A stretch of 64,000 nucleotides of DNA from Jannaschia seohaensis (lineage in GTDB: Bacteria > Pseudomonadota > Alphaproteobacteria > Rhodobacterales > Rhodobacteraceae): assembly GCF_900116765.1 (NCBI RefSeq), contig NZ_UETC01000010.1:1-64000 (forward strand), read 5' to 3'. The position numbers and the translations under genes are program-made. This document shows positions 40,796 to 63,297 of the stretch, piece by piece (within the stretch, counting starts at the first letter, position 1; each line of letters begins with the position of its first letter). The notes beneath the pieces were generated by a model. It was not told the origin of the DNA. It did no database searches and saw only the letters and a program-made list of their open reading frames with translations.

Positions 40796-41656
40796 TTAGC
40801 CTGCCGCGGGCAAGACCTTCGAGGCTTGCTGGCCGAGGCGATCGATGCCGAGCGTTACCGTCTCGCCGCCCTTGAGGAAGCGCGGCGGCTTGTAGCCCAT
40901 GCCGACCCCCGGAGGCGTGCCTGTCGAGATCACGTCGCCGGGCTGCAGGCTCATGAACTGGCTGCAATAGGACACGATGTGGGGCACCTTGAAGATCAGG
41001 GTGGATGTCGATCCCGACTGCATGCGCTCTCCGTCGACATCGAGCCACATCCCGAGCCCGTTCACGTCCCCGACCTCATCCGGCGTGACCAGCCAGGGCC
41101 CCGTGGGTCCGAACGTGTCGCAGCCCTTGCCCTTGTCCCAGGTGCCCGCGCGGTCCAGCTGGAACTCGCGCTCCGAGACGTCGTTGATGACGCAGTAGCC
41201 CGCGACGTGATCCAGCGCGTCGGCCTCGTCGATATAGACGCCCGGCTTGCCGATCACGACGCCCAGCTCGACCTCCCAATCCGTCTTGACCGAGCCGCGG
41301 GGGATCTGGATCGGGTCGTTGGGGCCGCAGATAGCCGAGGTCCATTTGTTGAAGATGATCGGCTCCGCCGGGATCGGCATGCCGGCCTCTTCGGCGTGGT
41401 CGGCATAGTTCAGGCCGATGCAGATGAACTTGCCGATGTTGCCGACGCAGGGACCGAGGCGCAGATCCTCCTGCGGCGTGCCGTCGACCAGCGGGAGCGA
41501 GTCCGGGTCCAGCTCTTGCAGAGCCTTCAGGCCGGCGGGGAGCAGCGTGTCGCCGCCGATATCGGGAACGATGGCCGACAGGTCACGCACCCGCCCGGCC
41601 TGGTCGAGCAGGCCCGGCTTTTCGGCGCCGGGCGCACCATGGCGCAGAAGCTTCAT
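40796..41656 (-). CDS. FAH-family hydrolase, probable 2,4-diketo-3-deoxy-L-fuconate/rhamnonate hydrolase
   Basis: A 286-residue enzyme of the fumarylacetoacetate hydrolase superfamily. Metal ligands and the core are seen in CIGLNYADHAEEAGMP, DWEVELGVVIGK, VINDVSERE, KGCDTFGPTGPWLVTPDE and DVISTGTPPGVGMGY. The N-terminus (MKLLRHGAPGAEKPGLLD) is the one typical of the subgroup that cuts 2,4-diketo-3-deoxy acids to pyruvate plus L-lactate. This fits the keto-deoxy-sugar dehydrogenase and lactate dehydrogenase in the other arm of the locus. It lies 72 bases after the ABC ATPase gene on the same strand. Confidence 0.72.
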   Translation of the reverse strand: MKLLRHGAPGAEKPGLLDQAGRVRDLSAIVPDIGGDTLLPAGLKALQELDPDSLPLVDGTPQEDLRLGPCVGNIGKFICIGLNYADHAEEAGMPIPAEPIIFNKWTSAICGPNDPIQIPRGSVKTDWEVELGVVIGKPGVYIDEADALDHVAGYCVINDVSEREFQLDRAGTWDKGKGCDTFGPTGPWLVTPDEVGDVNGLGMWLDVDGERMQSGSTSTLIFKVPHIVSYCSQFMSLQPGDVISTGTPPGVGMGYKPPRFLKGGETVTLGIDRLGQQASKVLPAAG

Positions 41657-41728: not shown

Positions 41729-43240
41729 TCAGGCGGCGCGGTCGTCCGTCAGACCCGAAATCGCCTGAATCAGGTTATCCTCCGTGACCTCCTCGGAGGT
41801 AAAGGTCCGCATCACACGGCCGGAATACATCGCGACGATCCGGTCGGAGACGTGCAGGACCTCGGGCATCTCGGAGCTGATGACGATCACGGCATAGCCC
41901 TGCGCGGCCAGGCCGCGCAGCAGCTTGTGGATCTCGGATTTCGAGCCCACGTCGATGCCGCGCGTGGGCTCGTCCACGATCAGCACGTTGGGATGCATCG
42001 ACAGCCACTTGCCGATGACGATCTTCTGCTGGTTGCCGCCCGAGAGGTTGCCCACGCGCTGCTTCCAGCCCGGCGTGCGGATGTCGAGCTTGTCGCGATA
42101 TTGATCGAAGATCGCGACTTCCGCGCCCTCGGCCATGAACGGCCCGGCCTTCAGATCGTCGACCTGGGGCAGGGTCATGTTGTCCCGGCAGTTCATGCCG
42201 AGCACGAGGCCCTGGCCCTTGCGGTCTTCGGGCACGAGGCTGATTCCCCGGGCGATGGCATCGGCGGGGGATGAGATCCGGACCTCCTCCCCATCGAGCA
42301 GGATCTGGCCCGCCGAGGGTTCGCGCAGTCCGAACAGCGTCTCGGCGATTTCGGTCCGGCCCGCACCGACAAGGCCGTAAAAGCCCAGAACCTCGCCGCG
42401 CCGCACCTCGAAGCTCACGTCGGAATAGAGCTTGCCGCAGCTCAGCCCCCGCACCTCCAGCGCGACATTGCCCAACTCGTGATGCGAGACGTTCCGGCTG
42501 AGGTCGAGCTTGCGCCCGATCATCATCTGCGTGACGCGCTCCTCGTCGGTGTTCTTGGTCTCGACCGTGCCCACATATTGCCCGTCGCGCAGAACGGTGA
42601 TGCGGTCGGTGATCTTGAAGATCTCCTCCATACGGTGGGAGATGTAGATGATCCCCACGCCTTCCGCCTGAAGATCCGCGATCACATCGAACAGCACGAC
42701 CTTTTCGGCATCGGTGAGCGAGGCGGTGGGCTCGTCGAAGATCACCGCCTTGGCGTCGACGGTGAGGGCGCGCGCGATCTCGACCATCTGCTGGTTGGCG
42801 ATCGACAGATCGCCGACCCGGGTGCGGGCGTTGAAGCCAACTTTGAGCTTCTTCAGGATCGCGTCGGTCCGCTCATAGAGCAGCGCCCAGTCCACCCGGC
42901 CGAAGCTTTTGCGGGGCAATTCGCCGAGATAGATGTTCTCGGCGACGCTCAGCTCCTCGGCGAGGCTCAGCTCCTGGTGGATGAAGACGATGCCCTTGGC
43001 CTTGGCTTCGAGCGGGCCGTTCATCACCACCTGCTCGTCGCCCATGATGATCGCGCCTTCGTCGGGCTGATAGATCCCGCCCAGGACTTTCATGGAGGTC
43101 GACTTTCCGGCGCCATTCTCGCCCATCAAGGCGTGGACCTCGCCGGGAAGGACGTCGAACGACAGGCCGTCCAGCGCCCGCACGCCGGGGAAGGTCTTGA
43201 CGATTCCCTCCAGGCGCAGAACCGGTTTCACGTCGGTCAT
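41729..43240 (-). CDS. Sugar ABC transporter ATP-binding protein (RbsA/MglA type)
   Basis: A 503-residue double ATPase. The first half has Walker A GENGAGKST, the Q-loop HQELSL, a signature-like LSIANQQMVEIARAL and Walker B VIFDEPTASL. The second half has a degenerate P-loop (GLVGAGRTE), LSGGNQQKIVIGKWL and LIVDEPTRGIDVG. The duplication and the degenerate second Walker A are normal for the CUT2 sugar family. The ATG at 43240 overlaps the stop of the permease gene (ATGA). It energises import with the two permeases and the binding protein at 46234. Confidence 0.92.
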   Translation of the reverse strand: MTDVKPVLRLEGIVKTFPGVRALDGLSFDVLPGEVHALMGENGAGKSTSMKVLGGIYQPDEGAIIMGDEQVVMNGPLEAKAKGIVFIHQELSLAEELSVAENIYLGELPRKSFGRVDWALLYERTDAILKKLKVGFNARTRVGDLSIANQQMVEIARALTVDAKAVIFDEPTASLTDAEKVVLFDVIADLQAEGVGIIYISHRMEEIFKITDRITVLRDGQYVGTVETKNTDEERVTQMMIGRKLDLSRNVSHHELGNVALEVRGLSCGKLYSDVSFEVRRGEVLGFYGLVGAGRTEIAETLFGLREPSAGQILLDGEEVRISSPADAIARGISLVPEDRKGQGLVLGMNCRDNMTLPQVDDLKAGPFMAEGAEVAIFDQYRDKLDIRTPGWKQRVGNLSGGNQQKIVIGKWLSMHPNVLIVDEPTRGIDVGSKSEIHKLLRGLAAQGYAVIVISSEMPEVLHVSDRIVAMYSGRVMRTFTSEEVTEDNLIQAISGLTDDRAA

Positions 43241-44238
43241 ATCTTCAGCTCCTCCTTGCCCTTCACGTTCAGCTGCCGGTCGAGGAACAGCACCGCGATC
43301 AGGATCAGGCCGATCACCAGGTTCACCGTCGACGTGTCCGCGCCGATATGGCCGAGGCCCTTGCGCAGAAGCTGGATCGCGATCACGCCGCCGAGCGTGC
43401 CGATGACACTGCCTGCGCCTCCGGTAATCCGCGTCCCGCCAAGCACGACGGCGGTAATGACCCACAGCTCGTAGAGCTGCCCGTCATTGGGATTGACCGA
43501 GCCGCTTTCGGAGTAGAACACGACCGCAGACAGCGCCGCCAGAAAGCCGATGATCGCGAAGTTGATCATCATGTGCGGGCCCACACGGATACCGGCATTT
43601 ACGGCCGCTTCACGGTTGTTGCCGATGGCGTAGGCGTTGCGGCCATGCACGGTGCGGGTCATCACAAACCACAGAACCAGCGTCACGCCCGCAAGGAACC
43701 ATGTCGCCGTGTGAAGCCCCAGGAACTGCGCTTCGGCATAGTCGACCAGCGTCCAGTTCAGATGGCTCGTCGGGTTTTCGCCGTTGAACATGAAGACGAT
43801 GCCGCGATAGCCCAGCATCGCCCCCAGCGTGACGATGAAGGCGTCCACCCCCGTCTTCCACACGATCAGCCCGTTGAGCGCACCCAGAAGGGTGCCGACC
43901 GCAAGCGCCAGGAACCACGCCACCGGGATCACCATCACGTCGCCCAGCGTCCCGGTCAGCATGTCCATGCTGCCCAGCAGGATGATCGCGGCGATGGCGA
44001 AGGTCGCGCCGACCGAAAGGTCGATATTGCCGTTCACCATCACGATGGTCATGCCCATGGCGATGATGCCGATGGGGGCTGACTGCTTGAGCAGCAGCAG
44101 CATGTTTTCGTAATCCATGAACGCCTTGTCAGAGAGCGCGAGGAACTCGCCGGCGATGCTGAAGAAGATCAGCTGCAGGACGATGAAGCCCCAGATCGCG
44201 CCGCCTTTCAGCGCTTTGGAGAGTGCTCCGGGTTGCAT
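43237..44238 (-). CDS. Sugar ABC transporter permease (RbsC type) 1
   Basis: A 333-residue inner-membrane permease with about ten helices and the CUT2/RbsC motifs VNGNIDLSVGATFAIAAI, GALNGLIVWKTGVDAFIVTLG, GNNREAAVNAGIRV and VLGGTRITGGAGSVIGTLGG. It lies between the ATPase gene (4-base overlap) and a second, different permease gene, so the transporter is likely a heterodimer rather than the homodimer typical of ribose systems. Confidence 0.9.
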   Translation of the reverse strand: MQPGALSKALKGGAIWGFIVLQLIFFSIAGEFLALSDKAFMDYENMLLLLKQSAPIGIIAMGMTIVMVNGNIDLSVGATFAIAAIILLGSMDMLTGTLGDVMVIPVAWFLALAVGTLLGALNGLIVWKTGVDAFIVTLGAMLGYRGIVFMFNGENPTSHLNWTLVDYAEAQFLGLHTATWFLAGVTLVLWFVMTRTVHGRNAYAIGNNREAAVNAGIRVGPHMMINFAIIGFLAALSAVVFYSESGSVNPNDGQLYELWVITAVVLGGTRITGGAGSVIGTLGGVIAIQLLRKGLGHIGADTSTVNLVIGLILIAVLFLDRQLNVKGKEELKI

Positions 44239-44253
44239 GGGCTGCCTCCTCCC

Positions 44254-45273
44254 TTAAGCGAACGACGACCAGAGCTTGCCGCGCTTGGCTGCGATATCGA
44301 GCCAGACAGCAAGGATGATGATGATCCAGGTGACGACGAACTGGGCGTAGAACTGGAGACCCATCAGCAGCAGGCCGTTCTGGATGAAGCCCAGGATCAG
44401 CACGCCGATCACCGTCTTGAAGATCGTGCCCGAGCCGCCCAGCAGCGACGCGCCGCCCAGGATCACGGCTGCAAGCACTTCAAGCTCGAGCCCCTGGCCC
44501 ACGGTGTTCTGCGACCCCAGGCTGCGGCTCGCCTGGATCAGGCCCGCCGTGGCCACGCAGGCGGCCGAGATCAGGTAACAATAAAACACGGTCCGCGCCC
44601 GGGGGATGCCCGAGAAGGTCGCCGCCGTCCCGTTGCCGCCCACCGCATAGACCTTCCGCCCGAACGGCGTCCGCGAGAGGGTCATGCCCAGCCCCGCCGC
44701 AAGGGCGATGAAGAGCAGGATCGGCACGGGAATGCCAAGAATGTCGCCCTGGCCGAAGAAGCCGAACCAGGTGCCCTCCTTATCGGCGATATCCATGTTC
44801 TTGCCGCCGGAATAGGTGAGCGTCAGGCCGTGGATGGCCGAGAGCATGCCCAGCGTCACGATCAGGGAATTGAGCTTCAGATAGCCGACCAGAAACCCGA
44901 TGACCGCGCCGAGGCAAAGCGTCATGGCGAACATGGTGGGGATCGCCAGGAGTGGCCCTATCTTGTCGTGCAGATCCAGCACGACGATCGTCGAGAAGGA
45001 CATCATCGACCCGACCGAGAGGTCGAGGTTCCCGCTGATCACCACGAAGGTGACGCCCAGCGCCATGACGCCGATGATGGCGGAGGACCGCACGACGCTC
45101 AGCAGATTGTCGGGCGAAAGGAATTTCGGGTTCGCGATGGTGAATGCGACGATGAAGATCACAAAGGCGATCAGGATGCCCTGTTTCGCCAGGACCGTGC
45201 CGATCTGCTGTCTGCTCAAGCTCGACATCTTTCCCTCCCGCTTGGCGCCTTCGCGCTGTGATACATCCGACAT
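44254..45273 (-). CDS. Sugar ABC transporter permease (RbsC type) 2
   Basis: A 339-residue inner-membrane permease, paralogous to its neighbour: VVISGNLDLSVGSMMSFSTI, GYLKLNSLIVTLGMLSAIHG, GGNGTAATFSGIPRARTV and ILGGASLLGGSGTIFKTVIG. About ten helices. The N-terminal 15 residues (SDVSQREGAKREGK) are hydrophilic and could be skipped by a start at the Met near residue 16. It is separated by 15 bases from permease 1 and by 75 from the upstream SDR gene. Confidence 0.9.
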   Translation of the reverse strand: MSDVSQREGAKREGKMSSLSRQQIGTVLAKQGILIAFVIFIVAFTIANPKFLSPDNLLSVVRSSAIIGVMALGVTFVVISGNLDLSVGSMMSFSTIVVLDLHDKIGPLLAIPTMFAMTLCLGAVIGFLVGYLKLNSLIVTLGMLSAIHGLTLTYSGGKNMDIADKEGTWFGFFGQGDILGIPVPILLFIALAAGLGMTLSRTPFGRKVYAVGGNGTAATFSGIPRARTVFYCYLISAACVATAGLIQASRSLGSQNTVGQGLELEVLAAVILGGASLLGGSGTIFKTVIGVLILGFIQNGLLLMGLQFYAQFVVTWIIIILAVWLDIAAKRGKLWSSFA

Positions 45274-45348: not shown

Positions 45349-46146
45349 TCACACGAGCGTCATGCCACCGTCGATCATCACGATCTGACCGGTCATGTAG
45401 TCGCTGTCCCTGGAGGCGAGGAACGTCGTGGTGCCGGTGATGTCCGACGGCTTGGCGACCCGGCCCCGGATGATCCCGGCCGAAAACGCCTCCATGGCCT
45501 CGCCCGGCTTTTCGGCGGCGCCGATTTCGACCAGATCCTTGTCGACCTGATCCCACATCTCGGTCGCCACCACGCCCGGGGCGAAGCCCGTCACGGTGAT
45601 GTCATGCTTGGCCAGATCGCGCGCGCCCGACTGGGTCAGCGACACGACGGCCCATTTCGACGCGCAATAGGGCGCGACGTTGTCGAATCCCTGCCGGCTG
45701 GCGATGGAGGCCGTGTTGACGATCTTGCCGCCATGGCCCTGCGCGATCATCTGACGGGCGGCTTCCTGCATGCCGATCATGCAGCCCAAGCCGTTGACGC
45801 TCATGATGAAATTCCAATTGTCCTCGGTCACGTCCATGAAGTTCATAGGCTTGTTCACGCCGGCATTGTTGAACTTCACGTCCAGGCGGCCGAACCGCTC
45901 GACGGTATGCGCGATCATCTCGCGAACTTGCGCGCGGTCGGTCACGTCCACGCGCGCCGACGTCACGGCGTCCGCACCCCCGTTCAACCTGGACCGGTTC
46001 GCTTCGGCGACCTCAGCGACCTTGTCGCCGTTGATGTCAGCGAAGCAAACCATCGCGCCCTCGTCCAGAAGGGCCTCCCCGATGGCGCGGCCTATGCCCT
46101 GCGCGGCACCTGTCACGATGCAAACCCGGTCGGATACACGTCCCAA
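45349..46146 (-). CDS. SDR-family dehydrogenase in the sugar ABC operon
   Basis: A 265-residue classical short-chain dehydrogenase: cofactor motif TGAAQGIG, NNAG (here NNAGVNKP), catalytic Ser in VNTASIAS, YCASK and an IDGG end. The Asp after beta-strand 2 (CFADINGD) predicts NAD preference. It resembles sorbitol/acetoin/sugar 1-dehydrogenases. It shares the unusual AGxNKP...FMDV-TEDNWNFIM segment with the SDR at 49279, so the two are paralogues on either side of the regulator. It likely oxidises the imported sugar or polyol; substrate not identified. Confidence 0.78.
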   Translation of the reverse strand: MGRVSDRVCIVTGAAQGIGRAIGEALLDEGAMVCFADINGDKVAEVAEANRSRLNGGADAVTSARVDVTDRAQVREMIAHTVERFGRLDVKFNNAGVNKPMNFMDVTEDNWNFIMSVNGLGCMIGMQEAARQMIAQGHGGKIVNTASIASRQGFDNVAPYCASKWAVVSLTQSGARDLAKHDITVTGFAPGVVATEMWDQVDKDLVEIGAAEKPGEAMEAFSAGIIRGRVAKPSDITGTTTFLASRDSDYMTGQIVMIDGGMTLV

Positions 46147-46233: not shown

Positions 46234-47184
46234 TCAGAAGACGGGCTTGGAGAACTCGCCCATGTTGTCCTGAGTGATCTTCGGCGTGTCGAAGTAGTTC
46301 AGGAACGGCACGTCCTTGCCTTCGAGCACGTCGATGGCCGTCTGCAGCGCGGCCTCGGCGTCGTCGACCGGGGACTGGTAGATCGAGCCCCAGTAGTCGC
46401 CCGCTTCCATCGCCTCGTAGCCGACGGAGAAGTTGGTGGCGCCGACGAAGATGATCCCTTCGCGGCCCGCGGCCTTGGCGGCGTTCAGCGCGCCCACGCC
46501 CATGTTGTCGTCGCCAGCATAGACGCCGTCGATGTCGTCATACTTCACCAGGAAGGCTTCCATGACCTGCTGCGACTTCTCGCGGTTCCAGTCGCCCGGC
46601 TGCGTCTCAAGGAGGGTCACGTTCGGGCAGACCTCGGGCAGACGATCCTCGAATCCCTTGGCGCGCTCGATGGCGGTGGTGTAGCCCGGCTGACCGGAGA
46701 TCTGAACGATCTGGGCTTCGTCCTGGATGCCCATCTCGGTGAACTTCTCGCACATGATCTCGGCCGAGCGCGCGCCCTGCGTGATGTTGTCGGGGCCCGA
46801 GAACGAGGCCACGAAGTCGAAGCCCGGCTCCGCGATGTTGGAGTTGGTCACGATGACCGGGATACCGGCCTGGTGCGCCTTGCGGACGGCGGGGATGACC
46901 GCTTCGCCATTGGTCGGCCAGATGATGATAGCGTCGACCTCCTGCTGGATCAGGTCCTCCATCTGAGCGATCTGCCGGGCCACGTCGCCGCCGGCGTCCA
47001 GAACGACCGACTCGACATTGTCGTTGGCTTCGGCGGCCGCGATGAACGCCTGCTCGTAGGTGGTCTGGTAACTGTCGACGCCGACGTTGTTCTGGGTGAT
47101 CCCGATCTTGAACGTGTCGGCGGACGCTGCGCCGGCCAGCGCGATGAGCGCGGTGCTTGCAGCAAGGATCTTGCGAGTTTGCAT
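46234..47184 (-). CDS. Sugar-binding periplasmic protein (RbsB-like, peripBP_4)
   Basis: A 316-residue family-4 periplasmic protein. The ATG at 47184 has ribosome site GGGAGGAAA and opens a signal peptide (ILAASTALIALAGAASAD). The mature sequence has ITQNNVGVDSYQTTYEQAFI, DLIQQEVDAIIIWPTNGEAV, VTNSNIAEPGFDFVASFSGP, GDDNMGVGALNAAKAAG and the closing VGATNFSVGYEAM. It is the first gene of the leftward operon, divergent from the HTH-binding-protein regulator at 47406. Ligand presumably a hexose, deoxyhexose or polyol. Confidence 0.88.
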   Translation of the reverse strand: MQTRKILAASTALIALAGAASADTFKIGITQNNVGVDSYQTTYEQAFIAAAEANDNVESVVLDAGGDVARQIAQMEDLIQQEVDAIIIWPTNGEAVIPAVRKAHQAGIPVIVTNSNIAEPGFDFVASFSGPDNITQGARSAEIMCEKFTEMGIQDEAQIVQISGQPGYTTAIERAKGFEDRLPEVCPNVTLLETQPGDWNREKSQQVMEAFLVKYDDIDGVYAGDDNMGVGALNAAKAAGREGIIFVGATNFSVGYEAMEAGDYWGSIYQSPVDDAEAALQTAIDVLEGKDVPFLNYFDTPKITQDNMGEFSKPVF

Positions 47185-47317
47185 GTGTCGTTTCCTCCCG
47201 GTGGGTCTTCGTTCTGGCCTGTTCGGCAAAACCTTCGCCGCGTGATTGCCCTCTGTCGGGTGCACCACTGCGACCCCCTGAGTGTTGCCGCGTCCATCCG
47301 ATCCTGGTTTTAAAAAA

Positions 47318-47355
47318 ATATCCGAATACGACTTTTTGATATCCAGTATGGATAT
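47318..47355. promoter_or_regulatory. ATATCC half-site cluster between the divergent sugar operons
   Basis: In the AT-rich part of the 221-base divergent region, ATATCC occurs at 47318-47323 and 47339-47344 (21 bases apart, two helical turns) and its complement GGATAT at 47350-47355, giving an ATATCC-N5-GGATAT inverted repeat. This is the natural operator candidate for the adjacent regulator. Confidence 0.5.
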
Positions 47356-47405
47356 TTTGTCGATACGTTACGGTTCCCTTTCCCTGCACACAAGAGAGAC
47401 GCCTC

Positions 47406-49256
47406 ATGGCGAACCAAAAGCCGTCCAGGCCGATATCCAGATCGGATACCCCGGCGGACAAAGTCGAGACAGCCCCGCCGGTCACGAAAGCCGCCCCCCG
47501 CATCATGAACGCATTGACAGGAAAAGCCACGCTGCCGAACGCGCCGCCCGAATCCCGGGGCGAGATGCAGGCCATGGTGGCGTTCCTGGAGGGTCTGACC
47601 AACGAATTGGAAGACACGTTCGACCTCAGGCAGCCGAACGCGCATCTTCGGATGATCATGCACCTGCTGCGTGGTCACTTCGAGGCGAAGACGGTCACCC
47701 CGACGGCTCTGATCGGCGCGAGCAACGCGCCTTATGCCACCGCGACCCGGCGTCTGAAGGAACTGGTCGATTACGGGCTGATCGAGCAGCGCCCCCGCAC
47801 GAAGACGGGCAAGACCTTCTCGATGCATCCCAGCGACGCGCTTCTGTCGTCTTGGAGCCAACTCGCCGGGCGCGTGCGCCGTCTGGCCGAGCCTCATTTC
47901 GGGGCTGTCGATGGCTCCGGAAGGGAACAAGACTACTATTTCGGCGGCAGCTATACCACGCGCACCCATGCCATCCCTCCACTCAGCGTACGCCCGGAGC
48001 CTTTGCGCCTGCCCGGGGGCGTCCGCGTGCTGGTGCACGGAGATCCGACCTTCATGGTCATGGATCAGCTCAAGCGCCAGTTCGAGCAAGTGATCGGCAC
48101 CGAGATCCGGCAGCGGGCCTTTTCGATCGACCGCCTGCGCGAAGAGGCGCTGCGTAACGCGGAACGCACCATGTCCCGCTATGACATCATCGCGGTCGAT
48201 CTGCCCTGGATCGGGGAATTCGCCGAGCGCGGCGTGCTCTTGGCGCTCGATAGCGTGATGGATGTGGAAAGGCTCGACCCGGCCGATTTCCACACCGCTG
48301 GCTGGATGGGCACGCATTGGGGCGGGCGTGCCTATGGTGTGCCGGCACAGACGACGCCCGAGCTTCTGTTCTACCGCCGGGACCTTCTGGCCGCCGCCGG
48401 GCTGGAGCCGCCGGCGACGACTGACGCCCTGCTTCGCGCGGCAAAAGCCCTGCACGACCCGCGCCACGGCCGCTATGGCATCGCCTGGAACGCGGCCCGA
48501 GGCACGGCGCTGGGGCACACGGTTCTGATGGCGTTGGCGGATTTCGGTCAGCCGGTCGTGGACCTCCCGCGGATCGCCGGCGGCTATGACGCGAGCCGGC
48601 TGGCCTATGGCCGCTACAGGATCACCATCGACACGGAGGCAGGGTTGCGCGCGGCGGAGTTCCTGATGGAGCTTCTGAACTATTCCCCGCCCGACATCCT
48701 GTCGATGTCCTGGTTCGAGCGCATCCGGCCCTATGCCGCTGGCAAGGTCGCCCTGGCCTATGGATACACGCTGCTCGCCCCGTATTTCGAGTTGGACGAG
48801 AGCGCGCCGGCCCATGGACAGACCGGATTTCTGCCCCACCCGGCCGGCCCCGGCGGCAGCAGGATCGCCCCGGTCGGCGGCTATGTCATGGGCATCCCCG
48901 CCAATCTCGCGCCCGAGCGCATCCCGGACGCCGTCGAGGCGCTGACGGTGTTCACCTCGCGCGAGGCGCAGAAGCTTTATGTCCAGAACGGCAGCCGCAC
49001 GAATGCGCGCTACTCCGTCGGGGCCGATCCGGAGGTGCGGCGGCTGTCGTCGATCTTCGAGGCGGTCGACGGCATGTCCTGGCGTGACGAGCTGCAATTC
49101 TGGCCGCGCCCGCCCATCCCTGAGATCACCGGGATCACGCAGATTCTGGGTGAGGAATTCCACGACATGCTGCGCGGGATCATCTCGCCGGGCCAGGCCC
49201 TGCGCCGGTCCCAGCACCGCGCCGACGCGCTCATCGAAATGAGACCACAGGTCTGA
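47406..49256 (+). CDS. Winged-helix regulator fused to a family-1 solute-binding-protein domain
   Basis: A 616-residue protein with no signal peptide. Residues 55-160 form a winged-helix DNA-binding domain (LRMIMHLLRGHFEAKTVT, then ASNAPYATATRRLKELVDYG and LIEQRPRTKTGKTFSM, a clear recognition helix and wing). Residues about 185-600 are an extracellular solute-binding protein type 1 fold (MalE cluster): VRVLVHGDPTFMVMDQLKRQ, VPAQTTPELLFYRRDLLAAA, GKVALAYGYTLLAPYF and the end DAVEALTVFTSREAQKLY. The binding domain would therefore sense a sugar inside the cell. It is divergent from the RbsB-like gene and leads the rightward operon, so it probably controls both. The architecture is uncommon to my knowledge. 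Confidence 0.78.
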   Translation: MANQKPSRPISRSDTPADKVETAPPVTKAAPRIMNALTGKATLPNAPPESRGEMQAMVAFLEGLTNELEDTFDLRQPNAHLRMIMHLLRGHFEAKTVTPTALIGASNAPYATATRRLKELVDYGLIEQRPRTKTGKTFSMHPSDALLSSWSQLAGRVRRLAEPHFGAVDGSGREQDYYFGGSYTTRTHAIPPLSVRPEPLRLPGGVRVLVHGDPTFMVMDQLKRQFEQVIGTEIRQRAFSIDRLREEALRNAERTMSRYDIIAVDLPWIGEFAERGVLLALDSVMDVERLDPADFHTAGWMGTHWGGRAYGVPAQTTPELLFYRRDLLAAAGLEPPATTDALLRAAKALHDPRHGRYGIAWNAARGTALGHTVLMALADFGQPVVDLPRIAGGYDASRLAYGRYRITIDTEAGLRAAEFLMELLNYSPPDILSMSWFERIRPYAAGKVALAYGYTLLAPYFELDESAPAHGQTGFLPHPAGPGGSRIAPVGGYVMGIPANLAPERIPDAVEALTVFTSREAQKLYVQNGSRTNARYSVGADPEVRRLSSIFEAVDGMSWRDELQFWPRPPIPEITGITQILGEEFHDMLRGIISPGQALRRSQHRADALIEMRPQV

Positions 49257-49278: not shown

Positions 49279-50088
49279 ATGGACCCCAATCGCCTCAAGG
49301 GCAAGAACATCCTGATCACCGGTGCCGCGCGCGGAATGGGCGCGGCCAATGCCGAGGCGTTCGCCGCTCAAGGCGCCAATGTTTGCCTCGGCGACCTGGA
49401 CCTCGACGCGGCCCAGGCCGTGGCGGAGAAGATCAACGCCGCGGGCAACGGCAAGGCCGTCGCGGTGAAGATGGACGTCACCAAGCGCGAGGACAACGCG
49501 GCCGCCGTCGCCAAGACGGTCGAGGCCTTCGGCTCGATCAATGTCGGCCTGTTCAACGCCGGTCTGAACAAGCCCCGGTTCTTCATGGACATCGACGAGG
49601 ACAATTGGGACCTCATCATGAACGTGAACACCAAGGCGATGTGGCTTGGCATGCAGGAGACGGCCAAGCAGATGATCGCCCAGGGCCCGATGGAGGATCA
49701 CCCCTACAAGCTGATCAATGTCGGCTCGATCGCCTCGCGCAAGCCCCTGATCGACGTGACGGTCTACTGCACCTCGAAATACGGCTGTCTGGCGCTTACC
49801 GAATGCGGCGCGCTCGGCCTCGCCGAGCACAACATCACCGTGAACGGCTACGCGCCCGGTGTCGTCGTCACCCCGCTCTGGGAACAGCTCGACAAGGACC
49901 TTGTCGAGATCGGCTTCAAGGAGCGCGAAGGCCAAGCCTATGACGACATCGTGCAGAACAACCTCGTCATCAAGCGCGTGTCCTATCCCGACGACATCAC
50001 CGGCACGGCCTCGTTCCTGGCGTCGGACGACAGCGACTATATGACCGGCCAGATGATCTCGATCGATGGCGGCTGGGTCACGAAGTAA
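49279..50088 (+). CDS. SDR-family dehydrogenase
   Basis: A 269-residue short-chain dehydrogenase: TGAARGMG cofactor loop, Asp in CLGDLDLD (NAD type), NAGLNKP, VGSIAS with the catalytic Ser, YCTSK and IDGGW. It is the paralogue of the SDR at 45349. An extra segment (PMEDHPYKL) precedes the catalytic strand. It starts 22 bases after the regulator gene behind GAGGAGG. Probably a sugar or polyol dehydrogenase of the same pathway; the substrate is unknown. Confidence 0.78.
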   Translation: MDPNRLKGKNILITGAARGMGAANAEAFAAQGANVCLGDLDLDAAQAVAEKINAAGNGKAVAVKMDVTKREDNAAAVAKTVEAFGSINVGLFNAGLNKPRFFMDIDEDNWDLIMNVNTKAMWLGMQETAKQMIAQGPMEDHPYKLINVGSIASRKPLIDVTVYCTSKYGCLALTECGALGLAEHNITVNGYAPGVVVTPLWEQLDKDLVEIGFKEREGQAYDDIVQNNLVIKRVSYPDDITGTASFLASDDSDYMTGQMISIDGGWVTK

Positions 50089-50151: not shown

Positions 50152-51450
50152 ATGTCACGCGCCCTGATGCCGAACATGCTCACCCCCCAGGACCTGGAGC
50201 CCAATTGGGAATGGCGCGAACGCCTTCCTGCCTGGGGTCATACGTCGGTCGATTTCGAGCGCCGGATCGACCATGACCGTCTGCGCCGCTACCGTCTCGC
50301 GCGGACGCGCCAGTCGCTGCAGAACTCGCAGGCCGGCTCGCTGCTGCTCTTCGACGTGAACAACATCCGCTACGTCACCGCGACCAAGATCGGCGAGTGG
50401 GAGCGGGACAAGATGTGCCGCTTCTGTCTGCTGACCGGCGATGACAGCCCCTATGTCTGGGACTTCGGCTCGGCCGCCGTGCACCACAAGCGCTATTCCG
50501 ATTGGCTGGAGCCCGATCACTGCCTCGCAGGCGTCGTCGGCATGCGCGGCACGATTCCGCCCGATTTCGGCCTGATGCAGAAATACGCCAAGATGATCGC
50601 GCAGCTTATCAAAGACGCGGGCATGGCCGACATGCCGGTGGGCGTGGACTATGCAGAGACCGCGATGTTCCACGCGCTTCAGGCCGAAGGCATCAAGGTC
50701 GTGGACGGTCAGCAGATCATGCTGGCGGCGCGCGAGATCAAGAACTGGGACGAGATCCAGCTGCTGACGCAGGCGGCCACCATGGTCGATGGCGTCTACC
50801 ACATGATCTACGAAGAGCTGAAGCCGGGGGTGCGCGAGAACGACATCGTCGCGCTGTCGAACAAGATGCTCTACGAGATGGGCTCGGACGACGTCGAGGC
50901 GATCAACGCGATCTCTGGCGAGCGCTGCAACCCGCACCCGCACAACTTCACCGACCGTCTGATCCGGCCGGGCGACCAGTGCTTCTTCGACATTCTCCAG
51001 TCGTATCAGGGCTACCGGACCTGCTATTACCGGACGTTCAACGTGGGCCGGGCGACCCCGTCCCAGACCGACGCCTATATCCGGGCTCGGGAATGGATCG
51101 ACGCTTCGATCGAGATGATCCGGCCGGGCGTGACGACGGACAAGGTGGCCGAAGTCTGGCCGACCGCCGAATCCCTTGGCTTCCCCAACGAGGACGCCGC
51201 CTTCGGCCTGCAATTCGGTCACGGCCTGGGCCTCGCGCTGCACGAACGCCCGATCATCAGCCGCGCGATCAGCCTCGATCACCCGATGGAGATCCAGACC
51301 GGCATGGTCTTCGCGCTGGAGACCTACTGCCCGGCAAGCGACGGCTATTCGGCCGCGCGCATCGAGGAAGAGGTGGTAGTCACCGAGACCGGCTGCGAGG
51401 TCATCTCGCTCTTCCCGGCCGAAGAGCTGCCGATCGCGAACCGGTACTGA
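50152..51450 (+). CDS. M24-fold (pita-bread) hydrolase or lyase with one metal ligand replaced
   Basis: A 432-residue protein of the creatinase/prolidase superfamily. The N-terminal creatinase domain (about 50-190, LLLFDVNNIRYVTATKIGEW) and catalytic domain (about 200-425) are both present. Compared with the usual five ligands, the first Asp (CFFDILQ), His (FGHGLGLALHE), Glu (FALETY) and last Glu (RIEEEVVVT) are kept, but the second Asp is Cys (GYRTCYYRTF). Activity as a plain metallopeptidase is therefore doubtful; creatinase and DddP show that this fold also serves C-N hydrolysis and C-S elimination. It lies between sugar dehydrogenases, 2 bases from the next gene. True substrate unknown. 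Confidence 0.75.
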   Translation: MSRALMPNMLTPQDLEPNWEWRERLPAWGHTSVDFERRIDHDRLRRYRLARTRQSLQNSQAGSLLLFDVNNIRYVTATKIGEWERDKMCRFCLLTGDDSPYVWDFGSAAVHHKRYSDWLEPDHCLAGVVGMRGTIPPDFGLMQKYAKMIAQLIKDAGMADMPVGVDYAETAMFHALQAEGIKVVDGQQIMLAAREIKNWDEIQLLTQAATMVDGVYHMIYEELKPGVRENDIVALSNKMLYEMGSDDVEAINAISGERCNPHPHNFTDRLIRPGDQCFFDILQSYQGYRTCYYRTFNVGRATPSQTDAYIRAREWIDASIEMIRPGVTTDKVAEVWPTAESLGFPNEDAAFGLQFGHGLGLALHERPIISRAISLDHPMEIQTGMVFALETYCPASDGYSAARIEEEVVVTETGCEVISLFPAEELPIANRY

Positions 51451-60365: not shown

Positions 60366-60829
60366 TGGGACGCTTCGTCTTGTGCGGTGACAAAGCGCTG
60401 ATGGGCCCGCTCGCGCTCCGGCCATTGCGTCTTGATCCATTCGAGAACGTCGCGGAGTTCGGCTTCGGAATAGCTCTCGCCGAAGCCGGGCATGTTGCTC
60501 TGGTAGCCGCCGCCGACAACCGCCGCCGTGCCGCGCATGGTGATCTCCAGAAGGACGCGGTCGGAATGGTGCCATGTATGGCCCGTCGCATCGTGGGGCG
60601 GAGCCGGCAGCTTTCCGTCGGGGCCGGGAAAGCGCCAGTCCGGTTGCCCTGCGAGATCAGCGCCGTGGCAGGCGGCGCAGGCCTCGGCGTAGATCGCTTC
60701 GCCGCGGGCAAGGTCGGCGGTGGGGAGCGGGGGGCCATCGGCCCCGCGCGTCGCGCCGCTCCAAAACCAGACCGCCGTGGCCGCCCCGGCCAGGAGGCCG
60801 AGCGCCGCAAGAGACTATCGTTGATTCAC
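60362..60829 (-). pseudogene. Cytochrome c with an amber codon at position 5
   Basis: An intact 150-codon frame (60362-60814) encodes a class I cytochrome c: haem site CAACH in AEACAACHGADLAGQP, axial Met in SNMPGF and a helical end ELRDVLEWIKTQWPERE. The only suitable start is GTG at 60829, which overlaps the ATPase stop (GTGA) and reads M-N-Q-R-TAG-S-L-A-A-L-G-L-L-A-G. The TAG at 60815-60817 therefore sits just before the signal anchor. No ATG, GTG or TTG lies between it and the haem domain in this frame. Either one base (for example CAG to TAG) has inactivated the gene, or an unusual start such as CTG is used. Confidence 0.65.
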
Positions 60830-63273
60830 AGTTTCATTGCCCGTAGCCGCAAGGAATTTCCGATCACCGACACCGAGGAGAGGCTCATGGCCGCCGCCGC
60901 GATCATCGGCGACAGAAGGACGCCGAAGATCGGGAACAGGATGCCTGCCGCCACCGGGACGCCGGCCGTGTTGTAGATGAAGGCGAAAAACAGGCTCTCG
61001 CATATATTGCGCATCGTGGCCTGCGCCAGCAAGCGGGCGCGGAGGATGCCGCGCAGATCGCCCTTCACCAGCGTCACGCCTACGCTTTCGACTGCGACAT
61101 CCGCGCCGGTGCCCATGGCGATGCCCACATCGGCGGCGGCAAGCGCTGGCGCGTCGTTGACGCCGTCCCCGGCCATGGCCACCGAAAGGCCCTTGTCCTT
61201 CAGACCCGTGATCAGGTCCGCCTTGTCCTCTGGCGACACGCCTGCGCGCAGCTCGTCGATGCCCAGTTCGCGGGCGACCGCTTCGGCGGTGCGCTGGCTG
61301 TCGCCGGTGACCAAGACGATGCGCAGACCAGCGGCGTGCAGGTCGCGGATCGCGTCGGGTGTCGTCTCCTTGATGCGATCTGCGACGGCGACGATCCCCG
61401 CCAGTAGGCCCTCGACGGAGAGCAGCATCGCCGTCTTCCCCGCGTCTTGAAGATCTGAGACCTGCGCCGCCGCCGCGGCCATGTCGATGCCGAGCTCTTC
61501 CATCAGCCGTGCGTTGCCCAGGGCGACCGCGGCGCCGTCGACCGTGCCGCGCACGCCTTTGCCTGTCACGGCATCGAAGTCGCGCGCGTCGAGCCGGGGC
61601 GCGCCGCGGTCTTCGGCGCCCGCCAGGATCGCTTCGGCCAGCGGATGCTCCGAGCCCCGCTCCAACGCCGCCGCGATGGCTAGGATGCGGGCTTCGTCCT
61701 GCGCGCCGAAGGCCACCACGTCGGTCAGGCTGGGTCGTCCCTCGGTCAGCGTGCCGGTCTTGTCGAGCACCAGCACATCGACCTTGGCGAAGCGCTCCAG
61801 CGCCTGCGCGTCGCGGATCAGCACGCCCGCCCGTGCCCCGCGCCCCGTGGCCACCATGATCGACATGGGCGTGGCCAGCCCAAGCGCGCAGGAGCAGGCG
61901 ATGATGAGCACGCTGACAGCCGCGACGACGGCATAGCCGAGCGCGGGCGACGGCCCGAAGGCCAGCCAGAGGACGAAGGCCAGAGCGGCGATGCCGATCA
62001 CGGTCGGGAGGAAATAGCCGGCCACCCGGTCGGCCAGCGCCTGGATTGGCGCGCGCGACCGCTGCGCCTGCGCCACCATCGACACGATGCGGCTGAGCAC
62101 CGTATCGCTTCCCACCGCCTCGGCTGTCATCACGAAGGAGCCGGCCTTGTTCAGCGTGCCGCCGGTCACGGCATCGCCCGATGTCTTTTCGACCGGGACC
62201 GGCTCCCCCGTGATCATGCTTTCGTCGACCGAGAATCGGCGCTCGGCGACGGTGCCATCAACGGGAGCGGCCTCTCCGGGCCGCACGCGCAGGCGGTCGC
62301 CGGCTTTGACGGCCTCCAGAGGCACGTCTTCCTCGCCCGTCTCGGTCACGCGCCGCGCGGTCTTGGGCGCAAGGTCCATGAGCGCCCGGATCGCGTCGCC
62401 GGTGCGGTCGCGGGCGGTGAGTTCCATGACCTGGCCGACCAGCACCAGGATCAGGATGACCGCCGAAGCCTAGAAATGGAGCGGCGGGCCGTGATGCCCC
62501 TGCAATTCCGCCGGAAAGATGCCGGGCAGCAGCAGCGACACCAAGCTGAAGCCATAGGCGGCGCCGGTCCCGATCGCGATAAGGGTCCACATGTTGAGAT
62601 TGCCGGTCACGATCGAGGTCCAGCCGCGCTTGAAGAACGGCTGGGCCACCCAGACCACGACCGGCGTGGCCAGCAGGAATTGCAGCCATCGCACCGTTGC
62701 GCCCCCGAACCACTCGGCCCAGGGCTGGCCCATCATGCCGGCCATCTCCAGCAGCAGAACGGCAAGCGCCAGGGGGCCGCCGATCCAGAGCCGTCTGCGA
62801 AAATCGACGAGCTCGGGGTTCGGGCCCGCATCGGCCGTTGGCAGCATCGGCTCCCGCGCCATGCCGCAGATCGGGAAGTCGCCCGGTCCCTCCTGCACGA
62901 TCTCGGGATCCATCGGGCAAGTGTAGAGCGTCCCCTCGGGCATCGGTTCGGGCGCGGGCCGGTCGCCGAGATAGTCTTCGGGCGCAGCCTCGAACTTCTC
63001 CCGGCAGCGGCCAGAGCAGAAGTAGAACCGGTCGCCCGCATGCTTGGTCATATGGCGCGCGGTGGCGCGGGTGACGGTCATGCCGCAGACCGGGTCCTCC
63101 GCCTCAATATAAGCGCCTGGATCGGCGGCGAACTTCTCCCGGCAGCCGTCGCTACAGAAATGATAGAGATGGCCGCCATGGTCGAGGCGCGGCTTGCCGG
63201 CCTCTGGGTCGACGATCATACCGCAAACGGGGTCGCGGGTGATGACCTCGGCCTCTTGCGGTCTCTCGGGCAT
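60826..63273 (-). pseudogene. YHS-containing copper-type P1B-ATPase interrupted by an amber codon
   Basis: Repaired length 815 residues. In order: two YHS metal domains (DPVCGMIVD, YHFCSDGCREKF; DPVCGMTVT, YFCSGRCREKF), a zinc/copper-binding segment (YTCPMDPEIVQEG, ICGMAREPM), first membrane helices, then TAG at 62470-62472 where relatives have FEAxAVI (here HF[17 protein letters not shown]). The rest holds [11 protein letters not shown], the phosphorylation site [19 protein letters not shown] and [10 protein letters not shown]. The transport motif normally CPC reads CSC ([11 protein letters not shown]). GTG at 63282 is an alternative start; ATG 63273 has GGAAGGG upstream. Likely copper exporter ancestry, now probably inactive unless the stop is an error. 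Confidence 0.8.
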
Positions 63274-63297
63274 GGGTATCACCCTTCCATCGGTAAG

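Follow-up and report, generated by a model that had tools for sequence, protein, structure and literature searches.

In the window, i.e., the whole stretch of 64,000 nucleotides of Jannaschia seohaensis analysed here, the ORF at 47406-49256 of the forward strand starts with ATG and encodes 616 amino acids, as a preliminary description of this DNA had given it. The encoded protein is a MarR-type winged helix joined to a complete family-1 MalE-type (type II) solute-binding domain. The gene and its surroundings contain the following features:

40796-41656 (-), hydrolase near 2,4-didehydro-3-deoxy-L-rhamnonate hydrolase (401 bits, below the 500-bit cut-off)
41729-43300 (-), RbsA-like ABC ATPase
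43237-45231 (-), two CUT2 permeases (BPD_transp_2)
45349-46146 (-), SDR dehydrogenase, acetoin reductase / L-iditol dehydrogenase-like (below those cut-offs)
46234-47184 (-), exported RbsB-like substrate-binding protein (Peripla_BP_4, type I fold), encoded at the head of the divergent CUT2-type transporter operon
47185-47405 (no strand), divergent intergenic region common to the two operons
47318-47334 (no strand), degenerate tandem half-site exactly 21 bp from O1, with the left arm TATCC only (PWM score 1.1)
47339-47355 (no strand), candidate operator O1, ATATCCAGTATGGATAT, perfect palindromic arms with a 5-base spacer (PWM score 25.3)
47406-49256 (+), gene of the putative HTH-SBP regulator, 616 aa, with an alternative start, Met34, at 47505 (ORF, domain matches)
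47433-47449 (no strand), candidate operator O2, ATATCCAGATCGGATAC, 94 bp from O1 at the 5' end of the regulator ORF (PWM score 20.8)
47556-47900 (+), MarR-type winged-helix domain, residues about 51-165, core 79-142 (MarR_2 in the family, models, PDB matches)
47994-49253 (+), SBP_bac_1 (MalE-type, type II) putative sensor domain, residues about 197-616 (Pfam, PDB, structure alignment)
49279-50088 (+), SDR dehydrogenase directly downstream of the regulator gene (80/80 loci)
50152-51450 (+), M24 / creatinase-like enzyme (next gene in 75/80 loci)

Beyond the M24 gene, further SDRs and an LldD-like oxidase were named by eye. The position between two divergent operons, which the preliminary description had pointed out, is conserved: besides the SDR, the divergent RbsB-like SBP is found in 79 of 80 ortholog loci from Rhodobacterales and some neighbouring groups, the exception (L041) starting about 370 bases before the gene match. 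Within the fetched stretch, an FAH gene is present in 26 and LldD in 31 of these 80 loci. In Phaeobacter and Marinovum (L150 and L153), a TPP-dependent 2-oxo-acid-dehydrogenase-like set is annotated after M24 and replaces SDR/LldD; this set also includes an aldehyde dehydrogenase annotated as of the succinate-semialdehyde type. Downstream of one shared core, a keto intermediate would be split in either of two ways, which suggests that the flanking pathway is an oxidative sugar or polyol route. Elsewhere in the window, two ORFs in 60826-63282 (-) look by eye like the parts of one heavy-metal P-type ATPase whose N-terminal part would bind metal.

Upstream of 47406, no in-frame ATG, GTG or TTG was found before a stop. 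Many ortholog alignments begin at Met34, and the true start may be this residue (47505). The objection that an internal start could yield an exported binding protein alone was checked, and the winged helix is retained with either start.

The solute-binding part is recognised by Pfam in the window protein itself, with SBP_bac_1 at residues 259-523 (E 6e-23; 82.7 bits versus a cut-off of 26) and SBP_bac_8 also over its cut-off (E 4.5e-17). All 63 aligned orthologs match SBP_bac_1 at E<=0.01. A PDB sequence search gave a profile E of 1.9e-33 to 5IAI, and VIA aligned the predicted structure with the same entry over 354 residues (Z 30.4, rmsd 3.1), 4QRZ, 6DTQ and 1EU8 being close behind. The whole family-1 type II fold is therefore present at residues about 197-616, and the claim of a full solute-binding protein in the same ORF stands.

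An export signal was judged by a simple hydropathy measure, not by a signal-peptide program. The highest 15-residue Kyte-Doolittle mean in the first 60 amino acids of the window protein is 0.39 (0.71 counting from Met34), versus 2.07 in the adjoining exported SBP, so that none is recognisable, as had been proposed, and the protein does not look like an exported ABC receptor. When 80 orthologs were read from the longest possible start, the median of the maxima was 0.74 and the top four were 1.30, 1.44, 1.61 and 2.15 (L063), where the longest start is probably too early. Without a recognisable signal peptide, the sensor would read a cytoplasmic ligand. The transporter receptor has the other (type I) fold, and sensor and receptor are thus unrelated proteins. 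An origin of the sensor as a copy of an adjoining transporter SBP was also considered and is argued against by the two paralog loci compared, where its similarity to the nearby CUT1 SBP is negligible (E 0.32 and 0.002). SBP_bac_1 genes occupy 20 places in the genome; the N-termini of 12 other loci (L001-L004, L006-L008, L164-L166, L168 and L169) were viewed by eye in a non-systematic way, L163 being unreadable, and no second HTH fusion was noticed among them, most having signal-like starts and some no assignable start.

The preliminary description expected Pfam to return an HTH together with SBP_bac_1/8; the second half of this expectation held, and the HTH half did not, since the best winged-helix match in the window protein alone has an E of 0.09-0.2, below every cut-off. 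NCBIfam and PDB sequence searches of this protein alone did not bring the HTH to cut-off either, so a family alignment was needed to see it. At E<=1, MarR_2 recognises the N-terminal domain in 62 of 63 orthologs (best 2.3e-7, with the window member below the cut-off), and at E<=0.01 it recognises 24 of 63 full-length orthologs. Modelled alone, residues 51-174 gave a pLDDT of 84.2 and the order four helices, two strands and a helix, i.e., the wHTH core, beta wing and flanking helices of the MarR fold. Foldseek matches of this model in the PDB are modest (best E 1.4e-4; 14 at E<=0.001; TM 0.45-0.67 by query length). The best 50 matches listed (MexR, HcaR, BpsR, PefR, NadR, HucR and others) are ones that we take, by title or name, to be MarR family members, and a family missing from the Foldseek and VIA lists is not thereby excluded. 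The full-length model is moderate (mean pLDDT 69.6, pTM 0.60), with low confidence in the N-terminal 58 residues and in most of the linker that follows the domain. It places a helix at 48-71, the wHTH at about 79-142 as the DNA-binding core and another helix at 144-165, in agreement with the winged helix proposed earlier at about 55-160.

The winged-helix segment is kept as protein in 63/63 aligned orthologs. Five of its residues, R115, R129, R131, H141 and P142, are shared by at least 95% of 136 aligned rows, of which 116 are orthologs and 20 more distant members; the members of 33% identity shown depart at positions 129 and 141. The HTH evolves faster than the whole protein (identity 50-66% versus 66-76% overall). 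Of 256 pairs kept for dN/dS, the 25 shown all have an HTH value under 1, which was set aside as evidence because strong codon bias makes dS unreliable.

The genomic survey of the architecture that had been proposed was run for the order, for a draw of genomes from the phylum and for plasmid records. Within Rhodobacterales, 83 of 390 genomes (52 of 139 genera) have a match at E<=1e-20, and by hand count the match reaches into the HTH in 79 of these 83; those of G066, G084, G308 and G369 cover the SBP part only. A draw from the whole phylum gave matches in 8 of 398 genomes, two of them (G478 and G493) in the SBP part only, and one genome from another class (G526) has a full-length match of 53% identity. 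The contig scan yielded 319 encoding stretches, the best 80 of which were kept and are 66-76% identical. Paralogs of 33-47% identity were also found, several of them in genomes that carry the ortholog as well. Of 728 plasmid records with a match, 34 span 80% of the query or more; they come from Rhodobacterales, Rhizobiaceae, Skermanella, Aminobacter and Paraburkholderia. Product names were given for 28 of these 34 best records, 26 being 'extracellular solute-binding protein' and the other two 'ABC-type sugar transport system, periplasmic component' and 'hypothetical protein'. Eight distant members were scanned with Pfam: SBP_bac_1 is over its cut-off in all eight, and an HTH is weak in six, absent in L161 and over the cut-off in one, the betaproteobacterial member from Paraburkholderia (HTH_IclR, 31 versus 22 bits).

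Some single copies deserve mention. At G359:C1:1513461-1515208, the regulator lies in two overlapping pieces (residues 28-430 and 422-611) and is apparently broken. In the Skermanella rosea plasmid pSR-2 (L156), the paralog stands beside recombinase, TniB, TniQ and Mu-type transposase genes, and this locus may have moved with a transposon. Five paralogs of 32-35% identity from Rhizobiaceae and Aminobacter (L152, L155, L158, L159 and L160) all adjoin an intradiol dioxygenase gene and four of them a maleylacetate reductase gene as well, with sugar-type dehydrogenases, a hint that in those loci the regulator family governs a route from a cyclitol or sugar to hydroxyquinol.

The divergent region 47185-47405, named in the preliminary description as the place to look for DNA binding, contains a strong and conserved candidate operator, the 17-base palindrome TATCC-RnWnY-GGATA. 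Counting the window, 61 of 86 divergent regions contain the form ATCC-N5-GGAT, with 86 occurrences in all, versus 1.75 expected as the mean of 20 rounds of first-order shuffles (maximum 5); ten other spacers (2-4 and 6-12) are at chance in the same regions. By a symmetric leave-one-out PWM, 81 of 82 non-redundant regions have a score >8, as do 20 of 410 shuffles, and the L067 ortholog has no site at all. All these regions share descent, so the loci do not count as independent cases. A PWM trained on the 80 ortholog loci gave 152 positions scoring >12 over their 1.29 Mb, and 143 of these fall at the 5' region of the regulator gene. Four of the nine positions outside are coding coincidences: there, about 3,000-3,060 bp upstream of the regulator match (L020, L061, L067 and L080), the site is spelled by the codons of FIQNG, a peptide conserved in a CUT2 permease (perm1). 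The 17-base pattern, with one mismatch tolerated at most, has only two places in the 4.84-Mb genome, 47339-47355 and 47433-47449, and a reversed control pattern has one at that tolerance. A 15-base pattern with two mismatches allowed has 3 matches in the window, a number that 10 of 100 shuffles also reached and that is not unusual. O2 is less certain than O1, because its bases also read as codons if 47406 is the start, and it could partly be a coding coincidence; if Met34 is the start, it lies in the 5' UTR.

A second site stands exactly 21 bp away in 62 of the 82 non-redundant regions and at 20 bp in one. Seen from the best site, a second site scoring >4 lies 21 bp to one side (-21) in 33 regions and 21 bp to the other (+21) in 30, and any other offset of 8 to 60 bp is found in at most 2. 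The distance from the tandem pair to a distal site, available in 35 cases, is 82-86 bp in 33 and 95 and 103 bp in one each. Helical phasing of this distance is not claimed, since the concentration is high at every period tried, through shared ancestry. Ortholog regions also show a conserved element, about TCAnnTTGAACATnTT, about +34 bp from the downstream tandem site and just upstream of a G-rich stretch before the regulator start, that resembles a weak half-site.

Versions of the core accompany part of the family into more distant loci, where they stand at or close to promoters beside some of the distant paralogs and are missing beside others. The exact core TCCA-N3-TGGA lies near the start of 8 of 23 paralogs (27-47% identity), versus 0.5% of shuffled regions, in a comparison devised after viewing the matrix sites and thus partly post hoc. 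Its flanks are mostly GTCC on one side and GGAA or GGAC on the other, instead of ATCC/GGAT. With one mismatch allowed, spacer 3 is found in 10 of 23 paralog regions and the other spacers (1-8) in 0 to 6, spacer 8 reaching 6; thirteen regions have no core within one mismatch. With the ortholog-trained matrix, 6 of 19 paralogs have a site >9 close to the start; there are 6 such sites in 8.4 kb near starts versus 14 in 246 kb away from them. Eleven distant plasmid loci, picked by hand, gave 12 sites >10 with the ortholog-trained PWM, versus 2.2 in shuffles. Eleven of these sites are in annotated records, and, by PLSDB gene tables that are incomplete, 10 of the 11 fall between listed genes, 7 of them in divergent gaps (L152, L155, L156 with three sites, L158 and L159) and the others in other gaps (L151, L155 and L159). 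Four of the 11 loci (L154, L160, L161 and L162), including both betaproteobacterial ones, have no site >10. Of the order's genomes that carry the gene, 26 of 83 contain the exact 15-mer and 57 lack it; of those that do not carry the gene, 44 of 307 contain it. It is therefore position, not bare sequence, that marks the carriers: by hand count, 19 of 26 places listed in carriers are within 250 bp of the gene match, a list that leaves out the matches of G084, G271, G319, G350 and G359. We read the palindrome as the putative operator of this regulator family, with flanks that drift, a reading that remains a correlation.

The domain layout, the conserved position, the conserved local palindrome and the lack of a recognisable signal peptide are computational observations. 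With them at hand, the protein is very probably a local one-component regulator, and we consider it likely that it works in the cytoplasm as a MarR-type dimer on the palindrome whose clamp binds a ligand and that thereby switches both operons. The putative binding of TATCC-RnWnY-GGATA in the divergent region (O1 at 47339-47355) would be made by the winged helices of a dimer or higher oligomer, and a 17-bp palindrome fits a MarR-like dimer. In most relatives, the two palindromes 21 bp apart, i.e., two helical turns, would place two dimers on one face of the DNA. The C-terminal MalE-type clamp would bind a small molecule that the flanking pathway imports or produces (to judge from the fold and the neighbours, probably a sugar, a polyol or a sugar acid), and closure of the clamp would alter the seating of the paired winged helices on the DNA. 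Two operons would be under this control, the leftward one for the CUT2 transporter and the rightward one with the regulator, SDR and M24 genes. As to the sign, our first choice is that the protein represses itself and the transporter without ligand and is released by it, because MarR proteins mostly repress until a ligand binds and because O1 and O2 flank the ORF start.

The sign could also be the opposite for the transporter. If the regulator binds this site, a serious although tentative alternative is that the protein, with ligand bound, sits on the tandem sites and brings RNA polymerase to the transporter promoter while repressing its own gene. The usual behaviour of MarR-type domains speaks against it, and the scan of 47100-47500 for sigma-70 promoters and terminators found none, so it located no promoter element for such an activator and repression and activation cannot be told apart. 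SgrR, a comparable regulator, reportedly activates its target sgrS. The geometry would allow activation, since the centre of the upstream tandem site precedes the start codon of the transporter operon by 123-167 bp (37 loci with a full SBP N-terminus), leaving room for a downstream promoter. Negative autoregulation, the other half of this alternative, is described for SgrR (PMC13060122).

The assignment of the palindrome and the nature of the protein can be questioned as well. That the protein is a regulator and the palindrome belongs to another factor, e.g., an unlinked regulator controlling these operons, would account for the 15-mer in 44 of 307 genomes without the gene and for the 13 paralog regions without the core; we regard it as unlikely, given that in 81 of 82 regions the palindrome stands at the 5' region of the regulator gene itself, that core versions follow part of the family into loci with different operons, and that two places in the whole genome fit a global factor badly. 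It is still less probable, indeed quite improbable, that the HTH-like segment is non-functional and the protein a cytoplasmic or otherwise non-classical binding protein. Its failure to reach any Pfam cut-off in the window and its faster evolution point that way, against which stand the five residues kept in at least 95% of rows, the HTH_IclR match over the cut-off in the betaproteobacterial member and the palindrome that accompanies the gene. Hardly credible, finally, and largely contradicted already is an ordinary exported SBP with an artefactual N-terminal extension: the product names of the 26 plasmid records agree with it, but the winged-helix segment is kept as protein in every aligned ortholog and the window protein starts without a hydrophobic stretch.

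Returning to the preferred reading of a cytoplasmic one-component regulator, we give about an even chance to its extension to the family at large, i.e., a so far undescribed one-component sensor family of MarR-type HTH and MalE-type clamp that would be common in Alphaproteobacteria and present in at least one betaproteobacterial genus. Its members would have kept the TCCA-N3-TGGA code in much of the family with variable flanks, their clamps would have diversified (sugars, polyols, cyclitols), and in many loci two dimers 21 bp apart and a distal site 82-86 bp away might allow the paired clamps to maintain a small repression loop. The copies whose product names were seen are called transport binding proteins or hypothetical, none of them regulator. 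A regulator family recorded as exported binding proteins would be hidden from the regulon maps of marine and root-associated Alphaproteobacteria. Since it pairs a well-understood MalE-type clamp with a small DNA-binding domain and a predicted operator, it is directly testable, and it could supply sugar-responsive switches.

Compared with known systems, the protein shares with MarR regulators (MexR, HcaR and others) the winged-helix fold with flanking helices and a 17-bp palindrome that suits such a dimer. Stand-alone MarR proteins have about 140 amino acids and sense ligands within the winged-helix dimer, whereas here a solute-binding domain of 420 amino acids is attached. The whole type II fold is common to MalE and other family-1 receptors (5IAI, 1EU8 for trehalose/maltose, 4QRZ and 6DTQ; Z 25.7-30.4 and 16-25% identity in the rows shown), but these are exported, while the window protein has no recognisable signal peptide, is fused to an HTH and adjoins a CUT2 transporter with its own type I SBP. 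LacI also joins a binding-protein-like sensor to an HTH beside sugar operons; it differs in its type I fold and its LacI HTH, and Pfam matched neither in the window protein. TrmB, the archaeal maltose/trehalose regulator, has a winged helix and a sugar-binding C-terminal part as well, with a sensor domain of another fold, and the window protein has a weak match to PF01978 (12 bits versus 25.6) and no listed match to the sensor domain. Neither the LysR HTH nor the LysR effector domain was listed at E<=1. The effector domain of LysR-type regulators also has the type II fold, so the preliminary description was too strong in calling this fold unusual in itself for a cytoplasmic sensor.

The same statement was overstated in view of SgrR (E. 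coli) and DsvR (V. cholerae), which have an N-terminal HTH and a C-terminal SBP_bac_5 domain, SgrR repressing itself (PMC13060122). They are the closest known systems in kind: they share with the window protein an N-terminal HTH fused to a C-terminal type II solute-binding domain, and they regulate sugar-related genes. The window protein differs by its SBP_bac_1 domain, its MarR-type winged helix and its place in a sugar transporter/dehydrogenase locus. In it, neither SBP_bac_5 nor SgrR_N (PF12793), presumably the Pfam name of the N-terminal domain of SgrR and DsvR, was found at E<=1; SgrR_N appears in one of the 8 distant members at E 0.16, under the cut-off. A literature search, covering few subscription journals, gave no paper on a MarR-SBP_bac_1 regulator among the matches listed. 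The window protein lies outside the SgrR, LacI, LysR and TrmB families, and it is not a categorically new kind among HTH-SBP one-component regulators. What is unusual here is the combination of a MarR-type HTH with a MalE-type SBP_bac_1 domain.
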